NCBI RefSeq assembly: GCF_900156885.1
Contig: NZ_FTOY01000008.1
Location: forward strand, 209,977 to 273,976
Source: Limosilactobacillus caccae
GTDB taxonomy: Bacteria > Bacillota > Bacilli > Lactobacillales > Lactobacillaceae
Length of the DNA: 64,000 bases
Direction of reading: 5' to 3'
The position numbers and the translations under genes are program-made. Shown here piece after piece: positions 36,518 to 54,794 of this stretch; the stretch's first letter is position 1, and every line of letters starts with the position of its first letter. Under the pieces are notes generated by a model that was not told where the DNA came from, made no database searches, and worked only from the letters and a program-made list of their open reading frames with translations.

Positions 36518-37171
36518 ATGTTACCAAAGTATGAAGCATTAAAAGCAGTTGAAGAAGCTGGTGTCTTGGCCGTTGTCCGTGGCCGGAGTGAAGAAAACTC
36601 CTACGAGATTTCAAAGGCCAGCATTAAGGGTGGGGTAAAGGCCATCGAATTAGCCTTCACTTCCCCCAACGCCGATGTAACGATTAAGCGGTTAAACGAG
36701 GAATTTGCCGATGACCCCGAAGTAGTTGTCGGTGCCGGAACGGTCTTAGACCCGGCAACGGCGCGGATGACGATGGTTGCTGGTGCCAAGTTTATCGTTA
36801 GCCCATCCTACAACGAAGAAGTTGCGAAGTTATGTAACCTGTATGCAGTGCCATACATGCCAGGTTGCTTCACCCCAACCGAAGTACAAACGGCTTTAAT
36901 GGCGGGTGCCGATGTCGTTAAGATCTTCCCTGGGGCAATTGCCGGCCAAAAGATGATTCCGGAACTGCAAGGACCATTCCCACAAGCTAATATCATGCCA
37001 AGTGGTGGGGTATCCCTTGACAACATGAAGGACTGGTTTGCGGCTGGGGCCTTCTGTGTCGGTGCTGGTGGGAGCCTCGTTGGCCCAGGTGCTGACGGCG
37101 ATTACGACCAAGTAACGGCCAATGCCAAGAAGTTCCACGAAGAATTAATGCGGATTCGCAGTGCAAAGTAA
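36518..37171 (+). CDS. kdgA: KDPG/KDGal-P aldolase KdgA, copy 1
   Basis: This 217-residue class I aldolase has GVLAVVRGRS, the catalytic Glu in IELAFTSP, GAGTVLDPATA, the Schiff-base lysine in VVKIFPGA and PSGGV. It splits KDPG to pyruvate and glyceraldehyde-3-phosphate. The ATG is at 36518 (AGAGGAA upstream). It differs from copy 2 (51615) by two residues only. Confidence 0.94.
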   Translation: MLPKYEALKAVEEAGVLAVVRGRSEENSYEISKASIKGGVKAIELAFTSPNADVTIKRLNEEFADDPEVVVGAGTVLDPATARMTMVAGAKFIVSPSYNEEVAKLCNLYAVPYMPGCFTPTEVQTALMAGADVVKIFPGAIAGQKMIPELQGPFPQANIMPSGGVSLDNMKDWFAAGAFCVGAGGSLVGPGADGDYDQVTANAKKFHEELMRIRSAK

Positions 37172-38017: not shown

Positions 38018-38037
38018 ATAGGAAGGAGAGCTTGTCG

Positions 38038-39669
38038 ATGGTGAAATTATTAGATGACTACCAAAAAGACAAGGATGCTTTTCAAAAGGCCGGAATTAAG
38101 GTTCCAGAGTTTGATCAGTCACGAATGGTTGAAGAAACCGCAAAGAACCCGGTATGGGTACACTTTGGTGGCGGAAATTTATTCCGTTGCTTCCACTCGA
38201 TGATTGCTCAAGACTTGCTGAATAGCGGTGATATGAAGAGCGGAATTATCGTTGCAGAGACTTACGGTGACCAAGTAGTAAATAAGCTTTACAAGCCGTA
38301 CAATAACCGTTTCTTATCAGTAGAAATGAAGAGTGACGGCAGCTTGGATAAGACCCTGGTTGCTAGTGTAGCTGACAGCATTTATGCTGGCGCGGATAGT
38401 AAGGAGGGCCGGGAAAAGTTAAGGAAGGTCTTTGAACAGCCATCCTTACAATTTGTCACCTTTTCAATTACGGAAAAGGGGTATGCCTTAAAGGACATGA
38501 ACGGTGAATTGACTGCTGATGCTGTTAGCGACATTAAGAATGGTCCACAAAAGCCGCTTACTAACATGGGCTTTATCGCAAGCCTCCTCTTAGCACGGTT
38601 TAAGGCAAATCAAGCACCGCTTGCCCTAGTAAGTACTGATAACTTTTCACAAAACGGGCAACGGTTGCAGGATGCGGTAATGTTAATTGCTAATGGCTGG
38701 CTCAAAAACGGGTATGTCGACCAATCCTTTATCGATTACTTATCAGATCCGACGAAGGTTACGTTCCCGTGGAGCATGATTGACCGGATTACACCAAACC
38801 CTTCAGCAAATGTTTCTGCTGAATTAAAGGCAAGTGGCTTTGAAGATGGTGAAATTCTGCATACGTCCAATTCTAACTTTGCCCCGTTTGGCAACACGGA
38901 AGAGACCCACTACTTAGTGATTGAAGATTCCTTCCCTAATGGCCGTCCCGCACTAGAAAAGGCGGGAGTGATGATGACTGATCGGGAGACAGTCAATGAC
39001 GCTGACCAGATGAAGGTTACGGCCTGCTTGAACCCCCTGCACACTTCGCTGGCGATCTTTGGCTGCCTTCTCGGCTTTGACTCGATAGCTGCAGAGGCGA
39101 ATGATGACGACCTGCTTAAGCTAATTAAAAACCTCGGCTACGGTGAAGACTTACCAGTGGTAAAGGATCCAGGAATTATCAACCCCAAGGAATTTATCGA
39201 TACGTTAATTACGAAGCGGTTGCCAAATAAGAATATTCCTGATACGCCACAGCGGATTGCCTCCGATACTTCGCAAAAGGTTGGTATTCGTTATGGGGTC
39301 ACCCTCCAGAACTATGTTGATGATCCGCAATTAGATCCCGCCAAGCTTGAATTTATTCCCCTGATTATTGCCGGTTGGTGTCGTTACTTGATGGCAATTG
39401 ATGATCGTGGTCAGGAGTTTACGCCAAGTCCAGACCCACTTTACGACCAATTACATGAATACGTTGCAACGATCAAATTAGGTGATGGTAGTGTTGATGT
39501 TCATGAAAAGCTGCAACCAATTCTTAGCAATAAGGCAATCTTTGGTAACGACCTTTATGAAATTGGTGTTGGTCAAAAGGTAGAGGGCTACTTCAAGCAG
39601 CTGATTGCCAAGCCGGGTGCGGTTCGTGCAACCATTGAAAATACGGTAGATAAATATGGTAAATATTAA
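38038..39669 (+). CDS. uxuB: Fructuronate reductase (mannonate oxidoreductase) UxuB
   Basis: This 543-residue member of the mannitol/polyol dehydrogenase family has VHFGGGNLFRCFHS (nucleotide binding), STDNFSQNG, and the catalytic Lys/Asn region MKVTACLNPLHTSLAIFGCLLG. It reduces fructuronate to mannonate for UxuA. The ATG at 38038 is chosen because it lies 9-10 nt from the AAGGAG site; an in-frame TTG at 38032 is too close. It heads an operon with uxuA 22 bp downstream. Confidence 0.93.
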   Translation: MVKLLDDYQKDKDAFQKAGIKVPEFDQSRMVEETAKNPVWVHFGGGNLFRCFHSMIAQDLLNSGDMKSGIIVAETYGDQVVNKLYKPYNNRFLSVEMKSDGSLDKTLVASVADSIYAGADSKEGREKLRKVFEQPSLQFVTFSITEKGYALKDMNGELTADAVSDIKNGPQKPLTNMGFIASLLLARFKANQAPLALVSTDNFSQNGQRLQDAVMLIANGWLKNGYVDQSFIDYLSDPTKVTFPWSMIDRITPNPSANVSAELKASGFEDGEILHTSNSNFAPFGNTEETHYLVIEDSFPNGRPALEKAGVMMTDRETVNDADQMKVTACLNPLHTSLAIFGCLLGFDSIAAEANDDDLLKLIKNLGYGEDLPVVKDPGIINPKEFIDTLITKRLPNKNIPDTPQRIASDTSQKVGIRYGVTLQNYVDDPQLDPAKLEFIPLIIAGWCRYLMAIDDRGQEFTPSPDPLYDQLHEYVATIKLGDGSVDVHEKLQPILSNKAIFGNDLYEIGVGQKVEGYFKQLIAKPGAVRATIENTVDKYGKY

Positions 39670-39691: not shown

Positions 39692-40765
39692 ATGAAAAAT
39701 ATGGGATTTCGCTGGTATGGCGATGGCAACGACTCGATCAAGTTGTCAGACATTCGTCAGATTCCAGGGACAACGCAAGTAGTTGGTGCATTATTTGATA
39801 TACCAGTTGGTGAAGTGTGGCCAAAAGAACGGATTGCGGCACTGAAGAAGGAAGTAGAAGATGCTGGCCTCAAACTTGAAGTGATTGAATCTGTTAATAT
39901 CCATGACGATATTAAGATTGGCCTGCCAACACGTGACAAGTACATTGAAAACTACAAAGAAACAATTAAAAACCTTGCTGCCTATGGCATTAAGGTTATC
40001 TGTTATAACTTCATGCCAATCTTTGACTGGGTGCGGACAGATCTTCATTATCCGCTTCCTGATGGCTCAACGGATATGGCTTTCCAGCATAAGTATGTTG
40101 AGGGGTCACCAGAAGACATTATTAAGTCTGTCGAAAAGAATTCCAACGGGTATGTTCTTCCTGGCTGGGAACCAGAACGGTTAGCGGAAGTTAAGCGGTT
40201 ATTTGAAGCCTACAAGGACGTTGATGAAGCTAAGCTCCGCGAGAACTTAAAGTACTTCTTAGATGCAATCATCCCGACGTGTGAAAAATATGATGTGCGG
40301 ATGGCAATGCACCCGGATGATCCGCCAATGCCATTATTTGGCCTGCCACGGATTTACAAGAACCGGGAAGACATGATCAAGATTGAACAAATGCACGAAT
40401 CAAAGTACAACGGCTTTACGATTTGTACAGGTAGTCTCGGTGAGAACCCGAAGAATGATGTGCCAGCCATTATCCGTGAATTCGTGAAGAAGGATCGGGC
40501 ACCATTTATCCATGCGCGGAACATCAAGTTTATGGAAAATGGGGACTTCCATGAATCAGCCCACTTATCATCCGAAGGTTCATTGGATATGTATGAAATC
40601 ATGAAAGCCTTGTATGACACCGGCTTTGATGGCTACATTCGACCAGACCACGGTCGTGACATCTGGGGTGAAGAAGGTCGTCCAGGCTATGGTTTGTATG
40701 ACCGTGCACTTGGTGCAACATACTTGAATGGCTTATGGGAGGCGATTGAGAAAGATAATAAGTGA
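39692..40765 (+). CDS. uxuA: Mannonate dehydratase UxuA
   Basis: This 357-residue TIM-barrel enzyme starts MGFRWYGDGNDSIKLSDIRQIPG and carries CYNFMPIFDWVRTDLHYPLPDG, MHPDDPPMPLFGLPRI and FIHARN, with YIRPDHGRDIWGE near the end. It dehydrates mannonate to KDG. It is followed by a large stem-loop and then the transporter/glucuronidase operon. Confidence 0.96.
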   Translation: MKNMGFRWYGDGNDSIKLSDIRQIPGTTQVVGALFDIPVGEVWPKERIAALKKEVEDAGLKLEVIESVNIHDDIKIGLPTRDKYIENYKETIKNLAAYGIKVICYNFMPIFDWVRTDLHYPLPDGSTDMAFQHKYVEGSPEDIIKSVEKNSNGYVLPGWEPERLAEVKRLFEAYKDVDEAKLRENLKYFLDAIIPTCEKYDVRMAMHPDDPPMPLFGLPRIYKNREDMIKIEQMHESKYNGFTICTGSLGENPKNDVPAIIREFVKKDRAPFIHARNIKFMENGDFHESAHLSSEGSLDMYEIMKALYDTGFDGYIRPDHGRDIWGEEGRPGYGLYDRALGATYLNGLWEAIEKDNK

Positions 40766-42173: not shown

Positions 42174-43727
42174 ATGAAATATAAAAATGAATTTTGGACA
42201 GCAACAGCTGGAGATTTAAGTGAAAAACGTACCCAAATAGCGGCACCAGAATATGTTGATAGAGTTATTGATGGTTACAAGATTGTAATTGATCCTTCTA
42301 AAAAGAAGCAAGATTGGCTTGGTGCTGGTGCTGCGATTACAGATGCTGCCGCTTCACTTATTTGGAAACAAAATGCGGAGCAACGTAGTGCATTGTTGCA
42401 TGAATTGTTTGATCCTGCAGAGGGAAACTTCTCTGCAATTAGAATACCAATTGGCTCTTGTGACTTTGGTTCCGGTGAATCGTCGACAGAAGAATATTAT
42501 AGTTATGATGATGTGCCATTTGGTGAGCATGATTCAAGCCTAGCAAAATTTTCGATTGGAAAAGGCGAGCCCGGTAGCCCAAATGCAACTAAGGATTTGA
42601 AATATATTGTTCCGGTTGTTCAGGAAATTTTAAGAATTAATCCTGCAGTAAAGGTTTTAGCTTCACCGTGGTCTGGTCCAGCATGGATGAAAAACACAGG
42701 GAGCATGAAGATGGGTGGTCATCTTCGCTTTGGCGAATTTACTGGTAATGGTTATGCTGATAAAGACCGCTTTGAAGGAGTTTATGCTAATTACTTTATT
42801 AAGTTTATTGAGGCTTATGCTAAGCTTGGGATTCCAATTTATGCGTTAACGATTCAAAATGAGCCATCAAATGCAGCTGCTTGGCCGGCGATGATTTGGA
42901 GTGTAAAGGAATTGGCAGAGTTTGGCGCTCACTATCTTCGACCAGCACTTGACGAAAACTTTCCAGATATAAAACTTTACTTTTGGGACGGAAGCCTTAA
43001 CGTCTTGAATGAGCCGTTAACGGAATCTATTACTCCTGAAGAAGCTAACGCTTTTGATGGTTTTGCTTTCCATACTTATGATGGACCTTATACAAACTTG
43101 TTTAAGGCTAGTCGCCTTAATCCCAATTGGAAGCTTGCAATGACAGAGCGACGGTGCATGCTTGAAGAAACAGTGGATGATGCTTCCCATATTATGTTTG
43201 GTTTAATTGGCAATTGGCTAGTCAGACAAGGCCTTTCATCCATTTATCTTTGGAACATGGCCTTAGATGAACGAGGACTTCCTAATATTGCAGGATCGAC
43301 TGGTCGGCGAGGCGTTGTCACGATTGACCATAAGACAGGCAAAGTTCAACGTAATTTGGAATATTACATGTTGCGTAACTTTACCCAGGATGTTGAACCG
43401 GGATCGGTAGTTATTGGCTCAAGTAATTATACACAAAATGGCTATTCTGGCGGTTTAGGATCAGTAGCGTTTTTAAGCCCAACTGGTGGGATTGCCGCGC
43501 ACATTTATAATCCAACAGCAGAAACAATGGTTGCTAATGTTATGGTAAATGGTGAAAGTAATCAATGGCAAAGGGTTGAAGTTCCAGCATATGGTACAGT
43601 TACCCTGCATAAATCGAACTACCCAATCAATGAAAGCTCACCACGACAAGATGAAAAATTTAAACTAAACCCTCGTCCAGCTAACTTGATGGATGACTAT
43701 GCGCCTGGTAAGGGAGTCAACAAATAG
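42174..43727 (+). CDS. GH30 glycosidase, beta-glucuronidase candidate 1
   Basis: This is a 517-residue intracellular GH30 enzyme: acid/base Glu230 in LTIQNEPSNAAAWPAM, nucleophile Glu325 in LAMTERRCM, and a C-terminal beta-sandwich. No signal peptide is present. A beta-glucuronidase of this family is known from Lactobacillus brevis, and the uronate context supports that activity rather than a glucosylceramidase or xylanase. It is paralogous to the next gene. Codon use is more AT-rich than in the flanking uxu/uxa genes. The ATG follows AAGAGGA. Confidence 0.87.
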   Translation: MKYKNEFWTATAGDLSEKRTQIAAPEYVDRVIDGYKIVIDPSKKKQDWLGAGAAITDAAASLIWKQNAEQRSALLHELFDPAEGNFSAIRIPIGSCDFGSGESSTEEYYSYDDVPFGEHDSSLAKFSIGKGEPGSPNATKDLKYIVPVVQEILRINPAVKVLASPWSGPAWMKNTGSMKMGGHLRFGEFTGNGYADKDRFEGVYANYFIKFIEAYAKLGIPIYALTIQNEPSNAAAWPAMIWSVKELAEFGAHYLRPALDENFPDIKLYFWDGSLNVLNEPLTESITPEEANAFDGFAFHTYDGPYTNLFKASRLNPNWKLAMTERRCMLEETVDDASHIMFGLIGNWLVRQGLSSIYLWNMALDERGLPNIAGSTGRRGVVTIDHKTGKVQRNLEYYMLRNFTQDVEPGSVVIGSSNYTQNGYSGGLGSVAFLSPTGGIAAHIYNPTAETMVANVMVNGESNQWQRVEVPAYGTVTLHKSNYPINESSPRQDEKFKLNPRPANLMDDYAPGKGVNK

Positions 43728-43738
43728 GAGGACTAATG

Positions 43739-45286
43739 ATGACAGCTTTTAAAAATGAATTTTGGACTGTTACTGCGGGTGATTTAAGTAGCAAACGAAA
43801 GCACTTAGCAACTCCTGAAATGAAAGAACACGGCGGGGATGGTTACAAGATTGTAATTGATCCTTCGCAAAAGGAACAAGAATGGATTGGTGCTGGGGCA
43901 GCAATTACTGATGCTGCTGCGTCACTCATTTGGAAGCAAAGTAAAGAGCAACGGAGTGCCTTACTACACGAATTATTCGATCCTAAAGAAGGTAACTTTT
44001 CAACAATCAGGATTCCTCTCGGGGCTTGTGAACCATCAAGCCAGCCATACTATAGTTATGATGACGTGCCATTTGGTGAGCATGATTCTAGTCTTGCTAA
44101 ATTCTCTATCGGTGAGGGGAAGCCTGGTGCAGATAATGCAACAAAAGATTTAAAGTACATTGTTCCAGTAGTTCAAGAAATATTACAAATCAACCCTGCG
44201 GTTAAGATTATGGCTTCCCCATGGTCAGCACCAGCTTGGATGAAGAATACAGGTAATATGCGGATGGGTGGACATCTCCGGTTCGGTGAATTTACTGGTA
44301 ATGGTTATGCTGACAAAGATCGCTTTGAAGGTGTATATGCGCAATACTTTATTCGCTACATTGAAGAATACAGGAAACTTGGTATTCCAATCTATGCTAT
44401 TACGATTCAAAATGAACCGTCGAACGCGGCTGCTTGGCCAGCGATGATTTGGAATATTAAAGAATTAGCACACTTTGGCTATAAGTACTTACGACCAGCG
44501 CTAGATGAGAACTTTCCTGACACTAAGCTTTATTTCTGGGATGGTAGTCTAAATGTACTCAATGAGTCATTGAGCGATGCGATTAATCCTGAGGAAGCTA
44601 ATGCTTTTGATGGCTTTGCTTTCCATACTTATGATGGTCCTTACACCAATATTTTTAAGGCGCGGCGATTCAATCCAAGATGGCAACTAGCAATGACTGA
44701 ACGGCGTTGCATGTTGGAAGAAACAGTTGAAGATGCTTCCCATATTATGTTTGGTTTAATTGGTAATTGGTTAGTAAGACAAGGACTTTCATCGATCTAT
44801 CTTTGGAATATGGCTTTAGATGAACGTGGCTTGCCAAATATGGTAGGTTCAACTGGCCGGCGGGGTGTTGTTACGATTGATCATACAACTGGTAAAGTCC
44901 AACGTAACCTGGAATATTACATGCTGAGAAACTTTACTCAAGATGTTAAGCCAGGTTCTGTAGTTGTTGGTTCAACTAACTATACCCAAGATGGTTATAC
45001 CGGTGGCCTAGGCTCGGTAGCCTTTTTAGGGCCTGATGGTTCAATTGCTGCTCATATTTATAATCCAACGGACAAGCCATTAAAGGCTTCGGTTATGGTA
45101 AATGGTTTTGAAAATAAATGGCAAGATGTTACAGTTCCCGCATACGGGACTGTGACATTACATAAAGCTAATGATGAAATAAATGAAAGTTCGCCACGTG
45201 AGGATGAGGCCTTTAAACTAAATCCATCACCAGCAAACCTGATGGATGACTATGCACCTGGAAAGGGGGTAAACAAGAAGAATTAG
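43739..45286 (+). CDS. GH30 glycosidase, beta-glucuronidase candidate 2
   Basis: This 515-residue tandem paralogue of the previous gene shares most residues, including TIQNEPSNAAAWPAM and LAMTERRCM (catalytic Glu pair). The largest difference is a short deletion: SCDFGSGESSTEEYYS in copy 1 corresponds to ACEPSSQPYYS here. The stretch forms part of the substrate-side loops, so the two may prefer different aglycones (inference). It starts 11 bp after copy 1; two adjacent ATGs follow GGAGG, the second better spaced. Confidence 0.87.
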   Translation: MTAFKNEFWTVTAGDLSSKRKHLATPEMKEHGGDGYKIVIDPSQKEQEWIGAGAAITDAAASLIWKQSKEQRSALLHELFDPKEGNFSTIRIPLGACEPSSQPYYSYDDVPFGEHDSSLAKFSIGEGKPGADNATKDLKYIVPVVQEILQINPAVKIMASPWSAPAWMKNTGNMRMGGHLRFGEFTGNGYADKDRFEGVYAQYFIRYIEEYRKLGIPIYAITIQNEPSNAAAWPAMIWNIKELAHFGYKYLRPALDENFPDTKLYFWDGSLNVLNESLSDAINPEEANAFDGFAFHTYDGPYTNIFKARRFNPRWQLAMTERRCMLEETVEDASHIMFGLIGNWLVRQGLSSIYLWNMALDERGLPNMVGSTGRRGVVTIDHTTGKVQRNLEYYMLRNFTQDVKPGSVVVGSTNYTQDGYTGGLGSVAFLGPDGSIAAHIYNPTDKPLKASVMVNGFENKWQDVTVPAYGTVTLHKANDEINESSPREDEAFKLNPSPANLMDDYAPGKGVNKKN

Positions 45287-45367: not shown

Positions 45368-47122
45368 ATGCTTTATCCAGAACAAACGGCAACGAGAACG
45401 CTTGCAGATTTAACTGGTTTATGGAAATTTAAAATTGAGGATGGACATGTTGATCCAGCAAAGCCATTACGAGGATATGAGTGGATGGCTGTACCAGCTT
45501 CATATAATGATCAAGTAACAGACTTGGGGAAACGGAATCGTGTTGGTTATTTTTGGTATGAAACAAATTTTAGTGTACCCGTTGATCAACTAAAGAAGCG
45601 AAATGTCCTGCGTTTTGGATCAGTAACACAAAATGCTGAAGTCTTTTTAAATGGACAAGAAGTTGGAAAGCATATTGGTGGCTTTACTCCCTTTGAATTT
45701 GAAGTTAATAAGTACCTAAAAGCTGGAGATAATAACTTAAAGATTCGCCTGAATAATTTGCTTGATAATACGACAGTTCCCTCTGCTTTGCAAAAAAATG
45801 AGAATGGAGAACTTAGCCAGCAAAATCGTTTTGATTTCTATAACTATGCCGGTATTCATCGCAAAGTCCAACTTTATACCACTGCGCAAACATATCTCGA
45901 ATATGTTGCGGTTAATTATAAAATAGATGGAGAAAAGACTTTCGTTCACCCAGATATAAAGATTATTGGTGGTTATGATCAAGTTGTAGTTACTATCCTT
46001 GATGAAGAGGGTAAAGTAGTGGCTCGTGGTGATGAAGAAGCCACGTTAACTATTAATAGCACTCATCGTTGGCAACCATTAAATGCTTACCTTTATCGTC
46101 TGCAGGTAAAGATATATGTTGCTGATAAATTAGTGGACTCTTATAATCAAGAGTTTGGTGTTCGAACAATTGAAGTTAAGCAACATCAATTCTTTATTAA
46201 TGGTAAACCTTTCTATTTCAAGGGCTTCGGTTGGCATGAAGACTCAGTAGCTCACGGAAAAGGAGAAAACCTCCCGCAGGTTAATCTTGACCTTAACATC
46301 ATGGAAAAGATGGGTGCTAACTCGTTTCGAACTTCTCATTATCCCTACTCGGAAGAGACGATGCGGCTCGCTGACCGAAAAGGATTTGTTGTTATTGATG
46401 AAGTCCCGGCAGTAGGCTTATATGAAAATTTTGCTGTTACTTTAGGCGGCAGTTTCAAGGAAGGCAAAACGTGGAAAAATTTAGATCCTCAAGCTAATCA
46501 TAAGCTTGCTTTACGTGAAATGATTGAGCGGGACCATGACCATCCAAGTGTTGTGATGTGGTCAGTAGCTAATGAGCCAGCAAGCCATGAACCGGGAGCA
46601 CATGAATATTTTGCTGATATAATTAGATGTGCTAAACAAATGGATCCGCAAAAACGGCCGGTAACAGTTGTTAATATCATGAATGCTGATGCTGAAAAAG
46701 ACTTAATTGGTGATTTAGTAGATGTTATTTGCTTAAATCGTTACTATGGGTGGTATGTTGACTTTGGCAAGCTTGAATTAGCAAAGAAACAATTAAAAGT
46801 GGAACTCGAGAAGTGGCACAAGAAGTTTCCAGAGAAACCAATATTATTTACGGAATTTGGAGCCGATACTATCGCCGGAATGCATTCTTTATACCATGCC
46901 CCATATTCGGAAGAGTATCAGGTTGATTATTATCAGGCTAACTTTGCGGTGTTTGATTCTTGTGAGTATGTTCAAGGAGAACAATTATGGAACTTTGCAG
47001 ATTTTGTTACTGAGCCGGGGATGATTCGGGTTGGTGCTGAGAATCGTAAAGGCGTATTTACTCGCGATCGCCGGCCAAAACAAGTTGTGCAATTATTAAG
47101 GCAGCGTTGGCGTAATAAGTAG
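45368..47122 (+). CDS. gusA: GH2 beta-glucuronidase
   Basis: This 584-residue enzyme has the GH2 sugar-binding domain, immunoglobulin-like domain and barrel. Acid/base Glu403 (SVANEPAS) and nucleophile Glu496 (LFTEFGAD) are present, and the N-x-K motif (Asn559, Lys561 in AENRKGVF) that recognises the glucuronate carboxylate. LNRYYGWYV and GEQLWNFADF match E. coli UidA. It is cytoplasmic and releases glucuronate for UxaC. The second of two adjacent ATGs after AAGGAGG is preferred. Confidence 0.94.
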   Translation: MLYPEQTATRTLADLTGLWKFKIEDGHVDPAKPLRGYEWMAVPASYNDQVTDLGKRNRVGYFWYETNFSVPVDQLKKRNVLRFGSVTQNAEVFLNGQEVGKHIGGFTPFEFEVNKYLKAGDNNLKIRLNNLLDNTTVPSALQKNENGELSQQNRFDFYNYAGIHRKVQLYTTAQTYLEYVAVNYKIDGEKTFVHPDIKIIGGYDQVVVTILDEEGKVVARGDEEATLTINSTHRWQPLNAYLYRLQVKIYVADKLVDSYNQEFGVRTIEVKQHQFFINGKPFYFKGFGWHEDSVAHGKGENLPQVNLDLNIMEKMGANSFRTSHYPYSEETMRLADRKGFVVIDEVPAVGLYENFAVTLGGSFKEGKTWKNLDPQANHKLALREMIERDHDHPSVVMWSVANEPASHEPGAHEYFADIIRCAKQMDPQKRPVTVVNIMNADAEKDLIGDLVDVICLNRYYGWYVDFGKLELAKKQLKVELEKWHKKFPEKPILFTEFGADTIAGMHSLYHAPYSEEYQVDYYQANFAVFDSCEYVQGEQLWNFADFVTEPGMIRVGAENRKGVFTRDRRPKQVVQLLRQRWRNK

Positions 47123-47136
47123 ATTAACAGTGACTG

Positions 47137-47167
47137 AAGGTAGTGTTTCAATAACGCTATCTTTTTA
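47137..47167 (+). terminator. Terminator of the glucuronidase operon
   Basis: AAGGTAGTGTT (47137-47147) pairs with AACGCTATCTT (47153-47163), then TTTTATTTT. Confidence 0.82.
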
Positions 47168-47211
47168 TTTTAAAAAGAAAACGCTTACTGCTAAAAAGTA
47201 AGCAAAACCTC

Positions 47212-47270
47212 TTGAATCTTAATCTAAATATAGTAGAATACAAGATGTTGATTTACTGTTCACGTTAACA
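47212..47270 (+). promoter_or_regulatory. Promoter and TGTTCACGTTAACA operator of the small peptide gene
   Basis: TTGAAT (47212-47217), a 16-nt spacer and TAGAAT (47234-47239). TGTTCACGTTAACA (47257-47270), the most symmetrical member of this operator family, lies just after the start point, as a roadblock would. Confidence 0.72.
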
Positions 47271-47307
47271 TTTAATGGGACGTTTTCTGTGAGAGGAGAG
47301 AATTAAA

Positions 47308-47484
47308 ATGAACTTAATTAAGACTTTTGTATTTTTTATCGTAGCGAGTGTTGCTTTAGCAGGGGTTGCTAGCGCAAGTTCCTTGTACACGACCTCAACG
47401 GTGAATAACCACAGTGTAAGCCAACAAATGGCTAATGTTATCAGCAAAAATAACGAAGCTGTTAACCACCAATTTAATAAGTAA
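47308..47484 (+). CDS. 58-residue secreted peptide in the uronate regulon
   Basis: This short gene begins MNLIKTFVFF and has a clear signal peptide (one Lys, hydrophobic core, cleavage likely after ASA at residue 23). The mature peptide is about 35 residues, polar, rich in Asn, Ser, Val and Thr, and has no Cys. It has GAGGAG 9-10 nt upstream, its own promoter and a uronate-type operator, and a modest GGGCTG/CAGCCC hairpin after the stop. I recognise no family. It could be a signal, a bacteriocin-like peptide, or a protein that assists uronate uptake. The frame is convincing because promoter, operator, ribosome site and signal peptide agree. Confidence 0.72.
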   Translation: MNLIKTFVFFIVASVALAGVASASSLYTTSTVNNHSVSQQMANVISKNNEAVNHQFNK

Positions 47485-47572
47485 AAGCAAGATAATTGAG
47501 GGCTGCTATCTGCGAGACAGCCCCATTTCTTCGCCCCAACTTGATCAATTATAAACAAATTATGGAAAAGCA

Positions 47573-47601
47573 TTGAATGTTTCACGTTAACATTCTATAA
47601 T
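47573..47601 (+). promoter_or_regulatory. uxaB promoter with operator inside the spacer
   Basis: TTGAAT (47573-47578), a 17-nt spacer and TATAAT (47596-47601). The spacer holds TTTCACGTTAACA, and the arms GAATGTT/AACATTC flank it, so a LacI-type repressor would sit between the two promoter boxes. Confidence 0.75.
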
Positions 47602-47778
47602 GTAATTGTATTGATAGCGTATCCATTTACCGCAAGGGCGGCAATAGTGGCTGCACGTCAAATATGAGGCAGGCTTTGCTATAAGATGCACATCACCTCT
47701 CACAGATGCAGATTAGGTAGGCTACAAGTCCTGATTACTAAATGATGTTAATTAATCAAGTTTTGGAGGGTTTCTAAC
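47602..47778 (+). other. Long untranslated leader of uxaB
   Basis: About 170 nt lie between the promoter and the start codon, with no gene. It is GC-richer than the surroundings and contains CCGC-AAGG-GCGG and repeated GCAGG/TGCA pieces that could pair. It is not a tRNA, and no named riboswitch was recognised. Confidence 0.4.
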
Positions 47779-49200
47779 ATGGAAAGTCTTAATAATAGTT
47801 TTCGTAAATTGCCACAATATCCTAATAAGGTAATTCAATTTGGTGAAGGTAACTTCTTGCGGGCATTCATTGACTGGCAGATTCACCAGATGAATAAGCA
47901 GGGCCTGTTCAAGGGTGGCGTGCAAATTGTCCAGCCATTGCCAACTGGCCGGGTTAAGGAACTTGATAAGCAAGATGACCTCTATACTGTTTTGCTTGAA
48001 GGAATCCTAGATGGTAAGAAGATCCAAAGCCATGAGATTATTGAGTCAATCAACGGGACAGTTAACCCCTACACTGAATATGACAAGTACATTAAGTTAG
48101 CAGAAGATGACAATATCGAAGTAATCTTCTCTAACACCACTGAAGCGGGGATTGAATTTGTTCCAGAAGATACACTTGATGCTATTAAAAACGGGGAAAA
48201 GAGTTCATACCCTGCTAAGTTGACGGCATTACTTTACCACCGGTTTGAATTAGGGAAGAAGGGCTTCCACATTATCCCTTGCGAACTAATTAACCACAAT
48301 GGGGATGCCCTCAAGAAGGCAATCTTGCAATATGCCGACTTATGGAACCTTGGTCAAGACTTTGTCGATTGGATTAACAACGATAACGAATTCTACTCAA
48401 CCCTAGTTGATCGGATTGTTCCCGGTTACCCACGCGACCGGGCGACTGACCTCGAAAAAGAGTGGGGTTACAAGGACCAAAACATGGTTAAGACGGAACC
48501 ATTCTTAATCTTCGTTGTTGAAGGAAATAAGGATATTGAAAAGGTCTTACCACTTAAGGAAGCCGGCATTAACCTGGTTGTCACTGATGATATGCAGCCA
48601 TACCGGAACCGGAAAGTATCAATCTTAAATGGCCCGCACACGACGATGTCACCAATTGGTCGCCTCGCTGGCCTTGAAACAGTTGGTCAAGTAATGGACG
48701 ACAAGGACTTCTACAAGTTCATTGACGATGAAATGCACAAGGAAATTATCCCAGTGGTTCCATTACCAAAGGACGAACTAGAAAGCTATGCGAAGGGGAT
48801 CCAAGAACGGTTTGAAAACCCATACGTTAAGCACCAACTGAGTGCCCTTGCCCTCAACAGTATTTCTAAGTATGCTGCCCGGTTGTTGCCAAACTACAAG
48901 CGCTACTACGACAAATTTGGCAAGTTACCTAAGCGGATGACCCTCGCGCTTGCTGCTTACCTGTGGATCTACAATGGCAAGTCCGAATTTGACATTAATG
49001 ATACTGCGGATATTACAGCCGGCTTTAAGAAGATTCAGGGGGATGACAATTACATCCACGAAGCGCTCAGCAATGACGCCTTCTGGGGTGAAGATTTGAC
49101 GAAGATTCCGGGCTTGGAAGAATTAGTAACGAAGTACTACAACGAAATTGCCGAGAAGGGTACCCGGGCAATTGTCCAAGAAATTAACGCAGAGGAGTAG
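47779..49200 (+). CDS. uxaB: Tagaturonate reductase (altronate oxidoreductase) UxaB
   Basis: This 473-residue polyol-dehydrogenase-family enzyme has VIQFGEGNFLRAFIDWQIHQMN at the N-terminus, IFSNTTEAGIEF, and the catalytic region VSILNGPHTTMSPIGRLAGLETVG. It reduces tagaturonate to altronate for UxaA. It heads the five-gene operon uxaB-uxaA1-epimerase-kdgA2-uxaA2. Ribosome site GGAGGG. Confidence 0.95.
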   Translation: MESLNNSFRKLPQYPNKVIQFGEGNFLRAFIDWQIHQMNKQGLFKGGVQIVQPLPTGRVKELDKQDDLYTVLLEGILDGKKIQSHEIIESINGTVNPYTEYDKYIKLAEDDNIEVIFSNTTEAGIEFVPEDTLDAIKNGEKSSYPAKLTALLYHRFELGKKGFHIIPCELINHNGDALKKAILQYADLWNLGQDFVDWINNDNEFYSTLVDRIVPGYPRDRATDLEKEWGYKDQNMVKTEPFLIFVVEGNKDIEKVLPLKEAGINLVVTDDMQPYRNRKVSILNGPHTTMSPIGRLAGLETVGQVMDDKDFYKFIDDEMHKEIIPVVPLPKDELESYAKGIQERFENPYVKHQLSALALNSISKYAARLLPNYKRYYDKFGKLPKRMTLALAAYLWIYNGKSEFDINDTADITAGFKKIQGDDNYIHEALSNDAFWGEDLTKIPGLEELVTKYYNEIAEKGTRAIVQEINAEE

Positions 49201-49207
49201 TAGTTTC

Positions 49208-50701
49208 ATGGAAAAACTAGTTATCTTAAATGGCAGTGACAATGTTGCTGTTGCAACGACTGACTTGACTGCCGAAGATACAATTGATGTTAATGGCAGC
49301 CAATTAAAGCTGGTTAACGATGTTCCTGCTGGTAACAAGCTTGCGCTAAGAAACCTTTCTGCTGGTGCAAATATCGTTAAGCTCGGCCAAGTGATTGGGC
49401 ACTTAACCGCTGATGTCCGCGCTGGGCAACTGGTCAATGAAGATAACTTGGCTAGTAGTCTCAACTCTGACCGGCAGTCAGTCATGAACATGAACCTTGA
49501 CCTTGCTGATTATATTAGTAAAAAGACGTTCATGGGCTACCGGCGGAAAAGCGGGAAGGTCGGAATTAGAAACGACCTGTTTATCGTCCCAACCGTTGGA
49601 TGTATTACTCCACTGATGGATGTGATGGTCCAACAATTTAAGGCTGCCCACCCTGATAATGGTTCCTTTGACAATATTGTTTTATTGAAGCACCCATACG
49701 GCTGTTCGCAACTCGGGGAAGACTTTGAACAAACCCGGCAAATCCTGTGTGATGCGGCACTGCACCCGAACGCAGGGGGAGTCTTCGTCTTTGGCCTGGG
49801 CTGTGAAAACAACCAGATGGCTGGAATGAAGGAAACGATTGACCAGATGGCCGGAATTGATCCTCACCGAATGAAATTCCTCGTTGCCCAAGAAGTTAAG
49901 GATGAGTTTGCCAATGCGCAGCAGATGCTAGAAGAATTAAACGAAGCAGCTGCCAATGACCATCGTGAACCAGTTCCGTTGAGCGAATTAAAAGTCGGCT
50001 TGCAAAGTGTCAAGCCTGATGCACTAGCACCGGTTACTGCTGACCGCCTGCTCGCTAACCTGGCGGATACGATTAATGCTAATGGCGGGAGCACGGTCCT
50101 TACCGGTGTTCCTGAATTAGCAGCGGCACAGGGCAACTTGCTTGCCCGGAGTAACGACAGGGAAACAGCCGAAAAGGTTGCCGATGTCTTTGACCACATG
50201 CAACACTACTACGGTGAATTTGATCAAGAGCTGGTCAAAAAGCCCGGTGCAAAGGATAAGGCTAATGGGGTGACAACAGCTGAAGAATTAGCGGCTAATG
50301 CGACGCAAAAGGCTGGTCATGCCCTGATTACTGATGCCTTGCGCTATGGGCATAAAGTAACGAAGGCCGGTTTGAACTTGCTGGAAGCGCCAGATAATGA
50401 CTTGATTGATTCATCAGCGGAAGCGGCGGCTGACTGCCAGATGGTGGTTGTCAGCACCGGGGTCGCAACGCCGTATGCTAGCTTTGTGCCGTCAATCAAG
50501 GTTGCCACCAATTCTGAATTGGCGACGAAGAAGCAGCTGTGGATTGACTTTGATGGTGGAAAAGTACTCACGAAGCCGTTTGCGGAAGTTGCAGCTGAGT
50601 TTATTGACTACATTATTGCCGTTGCTAGCGGCACGGCGACTAATAATGAAAAGGCTGGTTTACATGGCTTGGCAATCTTTAAGATTGGGGTCACTGAATA
50701 G
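49208..50701 (+). CDS. uxaA: Altronate dehydratase-family protein, paralogue 1 (C-terminal motifs lost)
   Basis: This is a 497-residue UxaA-family protein: N-terminal SAF domain, then the dehydratase body. The first cysteine motifs are kept: YGCSQLG (Cys166) and GLGCENNQ (Cys199). Two later motifs that I recall as conserved in UxaA are gone: the CGGSDGLSGITANP region reads SVKPDALAPVTAD (Ser267 for Cys), and SLGCTQKAG reads ANATQKAG (Ala365 for Cys). PEMFGAE and NPSPGNKAGG are also altered. Alone it is probably not an ordinary altronate dehydratase. The start is the ATG after GAGGAG, 8 bp from uxaB. Confidence 0.88.
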   Translation: MEKLVILNGSDNVAVATTDLTAEDTIDVNGSQLKLVNDVPAGNKLALRNLSAGANIVKLGQVIGHLTADVRAGQLVNEDNLASSLNSDRQSVMNMNLDLADYISKKTFMGYRRKSGKVGIRNDLFIVPTVGCITPLMDVMVQQFKAAHPDNGSFDNIVLLKHPYGCSQLGEDFEQTRQILCDAALHPNAGGVFVFGLGCENNQMAGMKETIDQMAGIDPHRMKFLVAQEVKDEFANAQQMLEELNEAAANDHREPVPLSELKVGLQSVKPDALAPVTADRLLANLADTINANGGSTVLTGVPELAAAQGNLLARSNDRETAEKVADVFDHMQHYYGEFDQELVKKPGAKDKANGVTTAEELAANATQKAGHALITDALRYGHKVTKAGLNLLEAPDNDLIDSSAEAAADCQMVVVSTGVATPYASFVPSIKVATNSELATKKQLWIDFDGGKVLTKPFAEVAAEFIDYIIAVASGTATNNEKAGLHGLAIFKIGVTE

Positions 50702-50718
50702 TAAGGAAGTTATTTATA

Positions 50719-51600
50719 ATGATAAAAATTGAAAATGCTGACTTTTGTGCTGAAATTGATGAACACGGGGCACAATTAACCCACCTGGTAAATAAGAAAG
50801 CCAACTTTGACTACATCTGGAATGGTGAAGAATGGGGCAAGCATGCACCGGTCCTCTTCCCCGCAATTGGTCGGTCTAATAAGGACCAGTACGTTTTGGA
50901 TGGGCAGACTTATGAAATGCCCCAGCATGGTTTTGCCGGCGACCAGGAGTTCACGGTGACTTACCATGCCGCAAATGTGGCTGTCTTTGAACTGACCGCT
51001 AATGCTGCGACAAAGAAGCTGTACCCGTTTGATTTTAAGCTGACCGTTGCCTTTACCCTCCTAAGTACTGGGCTATCAGTAAGCTTTACTGTTGAAAATC
51101 AGTCTGACAAGCAAATGCCATACTCGCTTGGTTCACACCCGGCATTCAACGTGCCGATTAACGGGGTATCCAAGTTTGATAATTACCGGGTTAAGTTTAC
51201 CGGGATTGAAGGGCCGGTTAACGTTTACGAAATCGTCAAGACACCTAACCCATACCGGACGGGGAAGGAAGAATTACTCACCAGCAGTGAAGGTAATGAA
51301 TTGAGCCTTAACTACGATGTCTTTAAGCCCGGCTTACGGATTATTAGCAATCCCGGAATTAAGAGTGTTAAGCTCTATTCACCGTTGACATCGCGTTCCA
51401 TTGAGATGGACATCAGTGAATTTAAGAACGTTTGTCTGTGGACAAAGGAAGATCAAGACTGCAAGTTCTTATGCATGGAACCATTTAACGGTCTCCCAGA
51501 TGTCCTTGGTGAACCGGTAGATTGGATGAAGAAGCCAGGAAATATCATTTTGCCTGCCCACGCAAGCAAGGTATCACAGTACGAAATGCATTTATCATAA
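50719..51600 (+). CDS. Aldose 1-epimerase-like protein
   Basis: This 293-residue galactose-mutarotase-fold protein has GAQLTHL, FPAIGRSNKDQYVLDGQTYEMPQHGFA (conserved His), and SLGSHPAFNVPI with a second His and a late Glu (MEPFNGLPD). It may interconvert anomers of uronates or their oligomers released in the cell. It is embedded between uxaA1 and kdgA2, so it belongs to the pathway by context. Confidence 0.88.
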   Translation: MIKIENADFCAEIDEHGAQLTHLVNKKANFDYIWNGEEWGKHAPVLFPAIGRSNKDQYVLDGQTYEMPQHGFAGDQEFTVTYHAANVAVFELTANAATKKLYPFDFKLTVAFTLLSTGLSVSFTVENQSDKQMPYSLGSHPAFNVPINGVSKFDNYRVKFTGIEGPVNVYEIVKTPNPYRTGKEELLTSSEGNELSLNYDVFKPGLRIISNPGIKSVKLYSPLTSRSIEMDISEFKNVCLWTKEDQDCKFLCMEPFNGLPDVLGEPVDWMKKPGNIILPAHASKVSQYEMHLS

Positions 51601-51614
51601 GGAGAGTTTGAAAC

Positions 51615-52268
51615 ATGTTACCAAAGTATGAAGCATTAAAAGCAGTTGAAGAAGCCGGTGTCTTGGCCGTTGTCCGTGGCCGGAGTGAAGAAAACGCCTA
51701 CGAGATTTCAAAGGCCAGCATTAAGGGTGGGGTAAAGGCCATCGAATTAGCCTTTACTTCTCCTAACGCCGATGTAACGATTAAGCGGTTAAACGAGGAA
51801 TTTGCCGATGACCCCGAAGTAGTTGTTGGTGCCGGAACGGTCTTAGACCCGGCAACGGCGCGGATGGCGATGGTTGCTGGTGCTAAGTTTATCGTTAGTC
51901 CATCCTACAACGAAGAAGTTGCGAAGTTATGTAACCTGTATGCAGTGCCATATATGCCAGGCTGCTTCACCCCAACCGAAGTACAAACGGCTTTAATGGC
52001 GGGTGCCGACGTCGTTAAGATCTTCCCTGGGGCAATTGCCGGCCAAAAGATGATTCCGGAACTGCAAGGACCATTCCCACAAGCTAATATCATGCCAAGT
52101 GGTGGGGTATCCCTTGACAACATGAAGGACTGGTTTGCGGCTGGGGCCTTCTGTGTCGGTGCTGGTGGGAGCCTCGTTGGCCCAGGTGCTGACGGCGATT
52201 ACGACCAAGTAACGGCCAATGCCAAGAAGTTCCACGAAGAATTAATGCGGATTCGCAGTGCAAAGTAA
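51615..52268 (+). CDS. kdgA: KDPG aldolase KdgA, copy 2
   Basis: This 217-residue aldolase is identical to copy 1 except for Ala instead of Ser in SEEN(A)YEIS and Ala instead of Thr in ARM(A)MVAG. The DNA differs at about 12 positions, all in the first 60 percent; the last 260 bp are the same. The Schiff-base lysine motif VVKIFPGA is present. Here it is in the galacturonate branch operon, while copy 1 is next to kduD. Confidence 0.95.
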   Translation: MLPKYEALKAVEEAGVLAVVRGRSEENAYEISKASIKGGVKAIELAFTSPNADVTIKRLNEEFADDPEVVVGAGTVLDPATARMAMVAGAKFIVSPSYNEEVAKLCNLYAVPYMPGCFTPTEVQTALMAGADVVKIFPGAIAGQKMIPELQGPFPQANIMPSGGVSLDNMKDWFAAGAFCVGAGGSLVGPGADGDYDQVTANAKKFHEELMRIRSAK

Positions 52269-52283
52269 AAGGAGTTATGAATA

Positions 52284-53789
52284 ATGAATAATTTCATTAT
52301 TTTAGACGAACATGATTCCGTAGCAGTGGCATTACAAGATCTGCCGAAAGGGACGGTCTTAAAGACAACGAACCACGGCGATGTTACCACCACCGAGGAT
52401 ATTACCCGCGGTCACAAGATCGCCTTAGAAGATATTAAGGAGGGCGCCGATGTGATCAAGTACGGTTACCCAATCGGTCACGCCACCCAAGATATCAAGC
52501 GGGGGGAACATGTTCACATTCACAATATTGCTACCAACCTTTCGGGCGAATTAAAGTACCACTATGACTCGATTAAAGTTACCAACAAAGTAGCGAAGGA
52601 TGACCGTCACTTTATGGGCTACAAGCGGCCAAATGGGAAGGTCGGGATCAGAAATGACCTCTACATTATCCCGGTCGTGGGCTCAGTTAGTGAATTGCTT
52701 GACCCACTGGTTACACAGTTTAAAGCCCTGCACCCCGACAACGGGAATTTTGACAACATTGTGCCCCTTAAGCACACTTACGGGATTGAGACGTCTCAGG
52801 ATAACTACGAACACGCGCGCAAGATCCTCCTTGACGCGGCATTACAACCCAATGCCGGCGCTGTTTTGATCTGTGGCCTGGGCTGTGCGGATGACGATGA
52901 GTTAGCCCGGATGAAAGAGATGCTAACAGGAGCAACTGGTTCGCTTGATACCGATCGGATTAAGTTCTTATCATCTGCTGATAGTGATGATGAGCTTACT
53001 GATGGCTTAGCGATGCTTGAGGAACTCAATGCGGCGGTTAAGGATGACCAACGGACGCCGCAACCATTGAGTGAATTGAAGATTGGGCTAAAGTGTGGTG
53101 GCTCTGATGGTTTATCAGGGGTTACTGCTAACCCATTGCTCGGTCGGCTGTCTGACTTTGTTGCTGCCCAGGGCGGGACAACGGTGTTATCAGAAGTTCC
53201 AGAAATGTTTGGGGCAGAAACAATCCTGATGTCGCGGGCGAAGGATGAAGCGACCTTTGACAAGACTGTTGACTTGATTAACAATTTCAAGGAGTACTTC
53301 GAACGGTTCCACCAACCAATTTACGAAAATCCTTCTCCTGGTAACAAGGCCGGGGGGATCTCAACCCTTGAAGATAAGTCCCTTGGGTGTACGCAAAAGT
53401 CAGGAACATCGGCGGTTAATGATGTTTTGAAATACGGTGATAAGATTAAGACGAAGGGCTTGAACTTATTGCAGGCACCAGGGAATGACCTCGTTTCATC
53501 ATCAGCGGAAGCATCGGCGGATTGTCAGATGGTCCTCTTCACTACTGGTCGGGGGACACCATTTGCCACCTATGTTCCAACGGTGAAGGTATCATCGAAT
53601 TCATACATCGCTAACCTCAAGCCACGCTGGATTGACTTTGATGCAGGCCAATTGATGAACGAATCAATGAATGACTTGGCTGCCAAGTTTATCCAGTACA
53701 TCATTGATGTGGCAAGCGGTAAGAAGACGAATAATGAAAAATACGATGTCCACGGAATCGCAATTTTCAAGACCGGAGTAACAAATTAA
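52284..53789 (+). CDS. uxaA: Altronate dehydratase-family protein, paralogue 2 (first Cys motif lost)
   Basis: This is a 501-residue UxaA-family protein with SAF domain and body. The C-terminal motifs are intact: GLKCGGSDGLSGVTANPLLG (Cys271), PEMFGAE, NPSPGNKAGG, SLGCTQKSG (Cys369) and TGRGTP. The first motif, YGCSQLG in family members, reads YGIETSQ (Ile168 for Cys), and GLGCENNQ reads GLGCADDD. This is the mirror image of the loss in paralogue 1. It is last in the operon, followed by a terminator. Confidence 0.9.
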   Translation: MNNFIILDEHDSVAVALQDLPKGTVLKTTNHGDVTTTEDITRGHKIALEDIKEGADVIKYGYPIGHATQDIKRGEHVHIHNIATNLSGELKYHYDSIKVTNKVAKDDRHFMGYKRPNGKVGIRNDLYIIPVVGSVSELLDPLVTQFKALHPDNGNFDNIVPLKHTYGIETSQDNYEHARKILLDAALQPNAGAVLICGLGCADDDELARMKEMLTGATGSLDTDRIKFLSSADSDDELTDGLAMLEELNAAVKDDQRTPQPLSELKIGLKCGGSDGLSGVTANPLLGRLSDFVAAQGGTTVLSEVPEMFGAETILMSRAKDEATFDKTVDLINNFKEYFERFHQPIYENPSPGNKAGGISTLEDKSLGCTQKSGTSAVNDVLKYGDKIKTKGLNLLQAPGNDLVSSSAEASADCQMVLFTTGRGTPFATYVPTVKVSSNSYIANLKPRWIDFDAGQLMNESMNDLAAKFIQYIIDVASGKKTNNEKYDVHGIAIFKTGVTN

Positions 53790-53815
53790 AGTTTGACTAT
53801 TAATTGGATAATGGG

Positions 53816-53842
53816 AAAAGCTGGGGTATCCCCGGCTTTTTT
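53816..53842 (+). terminator. Terminator of the uxaB operon
   Basis: AAAAGCTGGGG pairs with CCCCGGCTTTT around a TAT loop, ending in TTTTTT. Confidence 0.92.
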
Positions 53843-53863
53843 AGTTACTTCCCATTAATGTTA

Positions 53864-53915
53864 ATGAAAGCGATCACAAATAACTATTGAACACGCTTTC
53901 TTGCCTGTGTATAAT
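53864..53915 (+). promoter_or_regulatory. Promoter and upstream cre of the histidine phosphatase gene
   Basis: TTGAAC (53887-53892), a 17-nt spacer and TATAAT (53910-53915). A perfect cre, ATGAAAGCGATCACA (53864-53878), lies just upstream of the -35, a position more typical of activation than of repression by CcpA. Confidence 0.78.
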
Positions 53916-53960
53916 AAAAATGCTGCTGAATAGGTTTTGAAAGAAATTGAGGAATAATTG

Positions 53961-54794
53961 ATGAAGATTAAAAAATTTACAGTAATGTGTGCAGTTTTTT
54001 CCGGCCTTTTAGTTGGTAGTACCGCGACCGCTGTTGTTCCAGCGACCGCCTCTGCTGCTGATAAAGACCAAGTTACCATTTACCTCACTCGCCATGGGGA
54101 GACGACTGGTAATGTGATGCAACGGGTTCAGGGTTCCAGCGACTTCCCACTGACGAAGAACGGGATTAAGGTTGCTAATGACCTGGGCTACGGCTTAAAG
54201 GGGATTAAGTTCAAACACGCATACACTGGTAACTTAACTCGTCAAGAAGTCACTGCAGAACATGCGCTTAAGTACTCTGGCAATAAGGATACCAAGATCA
54301 CGACGACGCCGAAGCTCCGCGAAGGTGGCTACGGTAGTTTTGAAGGGGACAGCATTGAAGCTGACAACCAAAAGATTGCTAATGTATACGGCTATTCTGA
54401 TGGTAAGCAATTCCAGGAACAGACTGGGAAGGACTACTGGAACCGTCTCCAGGATGCCTACCACACTCTTGATAAGCAAAACTCTGAAAATACTAAGTTA
54501 GCCAAGAGCGACCGGGCAGAAAGTTCAAAGCAAGTGCAAAACCGGATGAATTCAGAATTGCTTCACATCGCCAAGACCACCCAAAAGCAAGGTGGCGGGA
54601 ATGTTCTGGTTGTTAGTTCCGGAATGTCAATCAACGAATATCTTTCGACAATTAGTGACAAGTACGAAGGGAAGCCAATGCAAAACGCCGCAGTGACAAA
54701 GCTCGTTTACAAGAACGGCAAGCTTCATGTCCAGGGGCCGATTGGTACCTTGCACTATGTCAACAAGGGACAAAAGATCGCCGACGGCAAATAA
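53961..54794 (+). CDS. Secreted histidine phosphatase (phosphoglycerate mutase-like)
   Basis: This 277-residue protein has a signal peptide (MKIKKFTVMCAVFSGLLVG, cleavage after ASA), then the catalytic motif YLTRHGET of the histidine phosphatase superfamily, LREGGYGSFEG, and a late VSSGMS instead of the usual second His (SHG). The loss of that His may lower activity. Secreted members act on outside phosphate esters or bind cell surfaces. The start is the ATG after a GAGGA site; a TTG directly before it is unlikely. Confidence 0.85.
   Translation: MKIKKFTVMCAVFSGLLVGSTATAVVPATASAADKDQVTIYLTRHGETTGNVMQRVQGSSDFPLTKNGIKVANDLGYGLKGIKFKHAYTGNLTRQEVTAEHALKYSGNKDTKITTTPKLREGGYGSFEGDSIEADNQKIANVYGYSDGKQFQEQTGKDYWNRLQDAYHTLDKQNSENTKLAKSDRAESSKQVQNRMNSELLHIAKTTQKQGGGNVLVVSSGMSINEYLSTISDKYEGKPMQNAAVTKLVYKNGKLHVQGPIGTLHYVNKGQKIADGK

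Follow-up and report, generated by a model that had tools for sequence, protein, structure and literature searches.

Why would a bacterium keep two copies of altronate dehydratase (UxaA) in one operon when neither copy has the full set of motifs of that enzyme? This question is raised by a window of 64,000 nucleotides from Limosilactobacillus caccae (contig NZ_FTOY01000008.1), a uronate gene region in which two uxaA paralogs lie in a five-gene run on the + strand, uxaB-P1-mro-eda-P2, with spacings of 8 to 18 bases. P1 (49208-50701, +, 497 amino acids) and P2 (52284-53789, +, 501 amino acids) are both intact at the coordinates given in an earlier note on this DNA, and are 46% identical to one another; no further PF04295 gene occurs in the genome. 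The note had proposed that the paralogs lost complementary catalytic motifs and now form an obligate heteromer with a shared active site. Our results confirm that the reciprocal loss is real, and stronger than the note stated. Judging from the sequences, we think it likely that neither P1 nor P2 works without the other and that the two form one heteromeric altronate dehydratase. Three iron-site cysteines would come from domain 2 of P1, and the fourth from P2, along with the SAF and C-terminal domains, which are predicted to hold the substrate.

Reciprocal loss of conserved motifs

Both paralogs have the SAF, GD_AH_second (domain 2), and GD_AH_C (C-terminal) domains, in that order and all above the Pfam cut-offs. 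P1 scores 27.2 bits with PF08666, 139.2 with PF04295, and 181.5 with PF20629, and P2 scores 48.8, 93.6, and 322.8 bits; the values for domain 2 (139 in P1, 94 in P2) and the C-terminal domain (182 and 323) echo the split described below. Neither reaches the cut-off of the galactarate dehydratase equivalog TIGR03248 (198.6 and 280.7 bits vs. 730.85). In P1, domain 2 (residues 110-248 by the Pfam boundaries; 49535-49951, +) is intact and is the proposed iron half-site, while the SAF and C-terminal domains are degenerate; in P2, the SAF and C-terminal domains are intact and domain 2 is degenerate.

Four cysteines, at positions 132, 166, and 199 (P1 numbering) and 271 (P2 numbering), occur in all five GarD-like rows and in every one of the 133 distinct canonical UxaA rows, the latter being mostly near relatives since they were gathered through matches to P1 or P2. 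Among the rows collected, this set is partly lost in P1-type and P2-type proteins only. P1 has Cys132 (49601-49603), Cys166 (49703-49705), and Cys199 (49802-49804), all on the + strand and each present in all 31 distinct P1-type rows. The fourth cysteine, that of the CGGSDG motif, is replaced in P1 by Ser267 (50006-50008, +) and is absent from all 31 P1-type rows, whereas it is present in 20/20 P2-type and 133/133 canonical rows. In the P2-type, the first cysteine has become serine and the second isoleucine or phenylalanine in every one of the 20 rows. Domain 2 of P2 (residues 112-252; 52617-53039, +) has lost candidate ligands at Ser134 (52683-52685) and Ile168 (52785-52787) and retains Cys201. 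Neither chain holds all four cysteines, as P1 holds the first three and P2 the third and fourth, but the two chains together hold the complete set.

The individual residues that the note had named proved to be right: P1 has Cys166 and Cys199, with Ser267 and Ala365 in place of cysteine; P2 has Cys271 and Cys369, with Ile168 in place of cysteine and ADDD following Cys201; and both the PEMFGAE and the NPSPGNKAGG segment have degenerated in P1 but not in P2. When its motifs were tested, each of Cys132, Cys166, Cys199, Cys369, Arg423, and the CGGSD cysteine (P2 numbering for Cys369 and Arg423) was found in 133/133 canonical UxaA rows. The losses also extend beyond those it described, since P1 lacks His43, Tyr59, and His77 of the SAF domain and P2 lacks the equivalent of Cys132 (Ser134 in P2). 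P1-type proteins lack these three SAF residues as well as the C-terminal Glu304, Asn354, Cys369, and Arg423 (P2 numbering); the P2-type keeps every one of them in 20 of 20 rows. The SAF domain of P2 (residues 13-82; 52320-52529, +) carries His44, Tyr60, and His78, each kept in 20/20 distinct P2-type rows, and its C-terminal domain (residues 262-499; 53067-53780, +) carries CGGSDG (Cys271, 53094-53096), PEMFGAE, NPSPGN, Cys369, and Arg423, with the tested positions likewise kept in all 20. A 390-amino-acid fragment (P0132) was left out of this motif table of database proteins.

The same division appears when whole domains are compared. Columns were taken as near-invariant at ≥95% in canonical UxaA and as lost when this held for ≥90% of a type. 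The P1-type has lost 6 of 21 such columns in the SAF domain and linker, 1 of 42 in domain 2, and 39 of 115 in the C-terminal domain (45/136 outside domain 2), and the P2-type 0 of 21, 12 of 42, and 0 of 115 (0/136 outside domain 2). A single column is lost in both types, and the domain pattern gives a Fisher P of 1.5e-11, although the columns are not independent. An earlier, smaller alignment with 181 columns showed 60 lost in P1, 15 in P2, and 1 in both (hypergeometric P = 0.016 for an overlap that small); it included 28 of 47 canonical or GarD-like frames, and the 19 dropped were near-copies or additional outliers from the same groups. Compared with 15 canonical rows, the P1-type is 73% identical in domain 2, 46% in the C-terminal domain, and 34% in the SAF domain, and the P2-type 59%, 86%, and 55%, respectively.

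Candidate iron ligands

A brown color and ferric electron paramagnetic resonance (EPR) signals like those of UxaA are reported for D-arabinonate dehydratase, a member of this superfamily (PMC6336799). That report describes Cys134, Cys173, Cys208, and Cys276 as the only cysteines conserved across the superfamily, sulfolactate sulfo-lyase excepted, and proposes them as common iron ligands. The mapping of these four onto the columns of P1 and P2 is our own; in the smaller alignment, exactly four cysteine columns are invariant across UxaA as well as GarD-like rows, and their order matches that of the published four, with similar spacing. The earlier note had taken the lost motifs to be catalytic, and the residues lost do include cysteines of this published candidate set. 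Under the four-cysteine proposal, P1 would carry three of the ligands and P2 the fourth. LguB, a single-chain altronate dehydratase, is active with FeSO4 and dithiothreitol (PMC12632266).

Predicted folds and sequence constraint

AlphaFold2 models, built with alignments of 51 (A1) and 43 (A2) of 164 proteins plus the window protein, are confident along the whole of both chains, degenerate domains included (mean predicted local distance difference test score 91.5 for P1 and 89.2 for P2). Both match GarD (6u7l) over the whole length, with template modeling scores of 0.74-0.79 by query length, root-mean-square deviations of 4.4-6.0, and E values of 1e-34 to 1e-36, and P1 and P2 are thus predicted to keep the GarD fold. 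Since the models are confident and the match to GarD covers the whole length, the degenerate halves have probably not unfolded.

Rates of change follow the same domain borders. Across six species, the mean nonsynonymous rate (dN) in P1 was 0.369 for the SAF domain, 0.067 for domain 2, and 0.274 for the C-terminal domain, and in P2 it was 0.125, 0.125, and 0.031. Neighboring genes gave 0.053 (uxaB) and 0.176 (the epimerase gene), so that the slow domains of the two paralogs evolve about as slowly as uxaB. Since the ratio of dN to the synonymous rate (dS) was 0.09-0.17 in two pairs for the degenerate SAF and C-terminal domains of P1 (dS being high and many of its values saturated), these domains are still constrained. 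In a tree of 63 rows, the P1-type (11 rows) and P2-type (10 rows) each formed one clade with support of 100/100, and the two clades showed the same branching for shared species. The P1-type and P2-type proteins P0017 and P0131, both with a longest contig of 9597 bases, have the longest end branches of their respective clades, hinting at correlated acceleration.

Distribution and gene order in relatives

The closest named relatives of the pair come from Limosilactobacillus species. Among the 50 genomes of the genus, 9 of which lie outside the quality class of ≥90% completeness and ≤5% contamination, PF04295 was matched in 10: nine have one P1-type and one P2-type gene, one has P2 only, and none has P1 only, the other 40 having no match. 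When P2 was used to scan 84,980 species genomes by way of six short peptide patterns, a search that gives lower bounds, at least 29 loci were found, seven of them P2-type (85-93% identity). P1 lies upstream on the same contig in five of the seven, and in the other two (L032 and L036) the contig ends upstream of P2. The order uxaB-P1-epimerase-eda-P2 was found in all five related loci that span the region (L031, L033, L034, L035, and L059). Relatives show the same pair with the same losses, for which the note had suggested a search, in the same gene order, and joint presence, a joint operon, and reciprocal loss all hold for P1 and P2 apart from the one genome in ten with P2 only. At canonical Lactobacillaceae loci (L037-L042), uxaB is directly upstream of a single uxaA in five of six cases; since uxaB also directly precedes P1, P1 occupies the usual position of the single gene.

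Among the best 120 matches to each protein in the protein database, P1-type proteins extend down to 58% identity and are followed by canonical ones at 53%, and full-length P2-type proteins extend down to 81%, followed by canonical ones at 74%. In two instances, a P1-type and a P2-type cluster have longest contigs of matching length (111182 and 9597 bases), consistent with joint presence. PF20629 was matched in 122 of 398 genomes of the class, where the matches listed score at least 297 bits and none comes near the 181 bits of P1; four class genomes with a poor best match had partial or broken matches and no pairs. A search with the UxaA family matched 25 of 396 genomes, 23 of them over the cut-off. 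Three of these (G050, G081, and G108) each combine a single UxaA-like gene with a single GarD-like gene, and in G362 two of the five family matches were looked at. A plasmid search with P2 covered 318 records, none at ≥60% identity.

Pathway context and neighboring genes

The uxaB gene (47779-49200, +), for tagaturonate reductase, scores 583.8 bits with NCBIfam NF002969 (cut-off 359) and ends 8 bp upstream of P1, linking the pair to UxaB in the genome. In the canonical pathway, altronate dehydratase is the step after UxaB (PMC6978723). No UxaE was found in the genome by a search that gave a match in a control genome, Thermotoga maritima, and no third, complete UxaA was found elsewhere in the genome with PF04295; a third copy and a bypass through UxaE were both rejected. 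Since UxaB would make altronate and the genome lacks UxaE, altronate dehydratase is the step expected next.

Between the two paralogs lie mro (50719-51600, +; PF01263, 105.5 bits), which is aldose 1-epimerase-like, and eda (51615-52268, +; PF01081, 146.7 bits; NF005119, 294.1 bits vs. cut-off 238), for the aldolase of 2-keto-3-deoxy-6-phosphogluconate and 2-keto-4-hydroxyglutarate (KDPG/KHG). A second KDPG aldolase gene, ~15 kb away (36518-37171), is identical to eda at 642 of 654 bases, with 2 amino-acid differences, which suggests recent duplication or gene conversion. A promoter and terminator scan of 47100-54000 gave 15 hits vs. 11.3 and 10 vs. 8.0 in shuffles, barely above the shuffles, and so speaks neither for nor against an operon. 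Directly 3' of the operon is a gene for a histidine phosphatase family protein (PF00300; 53958-54794) with a signal-peptide-like N-terminus.

Elsewhere in the window, genes for uronate isomerase (30074-31543) and the mannonate dehydratase UxuA (39692-40765) score above curated cut-offs, and a gene resembling that for fructuronate reductase (38032-39669) matches below the cut-off only. Putative 2-keto-3-deoxygluconate kinase, KduI, and KduD genes of the region are labels read from the sequence. Tandem GH30-like glycosidase paralogs (42174-43727 and 43736-45286; 83% identical) adjoin a beta-glucuronidase gene, and tandem GH30-like matches likewise lie downstream of the operon at two related loci (L033 and L035).

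A proposed shared active site and its alternatives

The proposal that P1 and P2 form an obligate heteromer and share an active site is supported, at the level of sequence, by the losses, gene pair, and gene order that recur in relatives, by the candidate iron ligands among the lost residues, and by the predicted GarD folds. Domain 2 of P1 would meet the SAF and C-terminal domains of P2, which are predicted to hold the substrate, and complete a site between the chains; we infer that P1 and P2 bind one another. Since the SAF and C-terminal motifs are left only in P2, a complete site could form only from domain 2 of P1 together with P2, and a simple P1:P2 heterodimer would hold one live and one dead site. 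The reaction would be the conversion of altronate to 2-keto-3-deoxygluconate, downstream of UxaB, and P1 alone or P2 alone would probably be inactive or nearly so. We give an even chance to a broader interpretation, in which duplication of a homomeric iron dehydratase was followed by reciprocal degeneration, leaving a heterodimer that is obligate, has one live and one dead site, and splits the four-cysteine iron site 3:1. The pair would then reveal an active site formed in trans, by domain 2 and the partner's SAF and C-terminal domains, across the UxaA/GarD superfamily.

Several observations weigh against the heteromer proposal. The structure paper on GarD reportedly places the dimer interface in domain 2 and a calcium site in the C-terminal domain, an arrangement that does not show a site between chains. 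In our tree, the P1 branch is long (1.15) and its placement uncertain, and P1 and P2 as sister copies are neither supported nor rejected (approximately unbiased test, P = 0.40). The four-cysteine iron site is itself a proposal based on EPR and conservation (PMC6336799). SuyB of sulfolactate sulfo-lyase, described as lacking the conserved cysteine set (PMC6336799), is active, with 1.9 mU/mg alone and 4.5 mU/mg as SuyAB (PMC6278857), so lost cysteines are no proof of a dead protein. Since the region also encodes UxuA, growth on glucuronate may not need an enzyme made of P1 and P2. Finally, one genome (G409) has P2 and neither P1 nor uxaB. The earlier note had held that relatives with only one of the two genes would refute it, and one genome in ten does fit that description; however, its contig matches L036, which starts just upstream of mro, at 59 bases from that gene, and uxaB is missing along with P1. 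The P2-only state is possibly an assembly gap or a partial loss of the operon. L036 is a contig of L. panis DSM 6035, from whose draft P1 and uxaB are missing, and near-identical aldolase repeats may hamper assembly at this locus.

The P2-type also retains the third cysteine (Cys201) in 17 of 20 rows and His164 in all 20, which counts against a shared site and would suit an alternative in which P2 is a working altronate dehydratase alone, without the domain-2 cysteines, and P1 a helper that, acting away from the active site, stabilizes or activates P2. The SAF and C-terminal motifs kept in 20/20 P2-type rows, the activity of SuyB without the full set (PMC6278857), and the dead paralog known to activate its partner in trypanosomatid deoxyhypusine synthase (PMC3663545) agree with such a role. 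We nevertheless regard it as unlikely, since it leaves unexplained why domain 2 is the slowest part of P1 (dN 0.067 vs. 0.274 and 0.369) and why its cysteines are kept in 31/31 rows, which a mere scaffold would not need. We assign a smaller chance still to P1 and P2 being separate enzymes, each now acting on a new substrate or catalyzing a new reaction. Both chains are predicted to be folded and are constrained, and other UxaA/GarD members are reported to use other sugar acids (PMC6336799), but two such enzymes would leave UxaB without a partner in a genome that has no other PF04295 gene and no UxaE, and would not predict losses that tile three domains without overlap or joint presence in nine of ten genomes. 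That one or both copies are decaying remnants of an altronate branch being lost is highly improbable, despite the P2-only genome without uxaB and the 40 of 50 genus genomes without a match, and the note was right to find decay a poor account of the mirror-image loss: frames are open in all rows collected, the losses are fixed and common to species, the degenerate P1 domains have dN/dS of 0.09-0.17, the slow domains change at about the rate of uxaB, and gene order is conserved; on the open frames, constraint, and shared fixed losses, decay of a single copy was likewise rejected.

Comparison with known systems

The heteromer proposed for P1 and P2 would offer a direct and inexpensive way to learn where UxaA/GarD enzymes have their iron and active sites, within or between chains. 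The pair is also a natural experiment in subfunctionalization, as the losses follow domain borders and separate what is needed in the same chain from domains that a partner can supply. Database names such as UxaA family hydrolase or altronate dehydratase would need correcting for both copies, since each alone is probably inactive or nearly so.

Like the UxaA/GarD dehydratases (LguB, PMC12632266; GarD, 6u7l), P1 and P2 combine PF08666, PF04295, and PF20629, share the predicted fold, and have uxaB and eda as operon partners, and counted together they match the four invariant cysteines of that group. They differ in that canonical UxaA has all four cysteines and the motifs in one chain (133/133 distinct rows), whereas P1 and P2 each have only part. 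Sulfolactate sulfo-lyase (SuyAB) belongs to the same superfamily and, like the pair, consists of two gene products; it is the only heteromer of the four functional enzymes that PMC6336799 lists, a paper that also infers a heteromeric L-fuconate dehydratase. However, SuyA is small (~15 kDa with tag) and SuyB ~46 kDa (PMC6278857), while P1 and P2 are both full length and are split by lost residues. A division of the SuyAB type, into a small SAF-only subunit and a large one without SAF, was rejected for P1 and P2, each of which has all three domains. Instead, one chain would contribute a functional domain 2 and the other functional SAF and C-terminal domains. The principle of complementary paralogs is known, but a search of open-licence papers turned up no UxaA variant of it, with two copies that are complementary and both full length. 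One parallel in principle is trypanosomatid deoxyhypusine synthase, in which, as proposed here, paralogous subunits are impaired and both are needed, in that case as a heterotetramer (PMC3663545). That enzyme is unrelated and eukaryotic, one of its paralogs is catalytically dead, and its activation is described as allosteric (PMC3663545), whereas the losses in P1 and P2 are reciprocal, run along domain borders, and affect a bacterial, iron-linked dehydratase.

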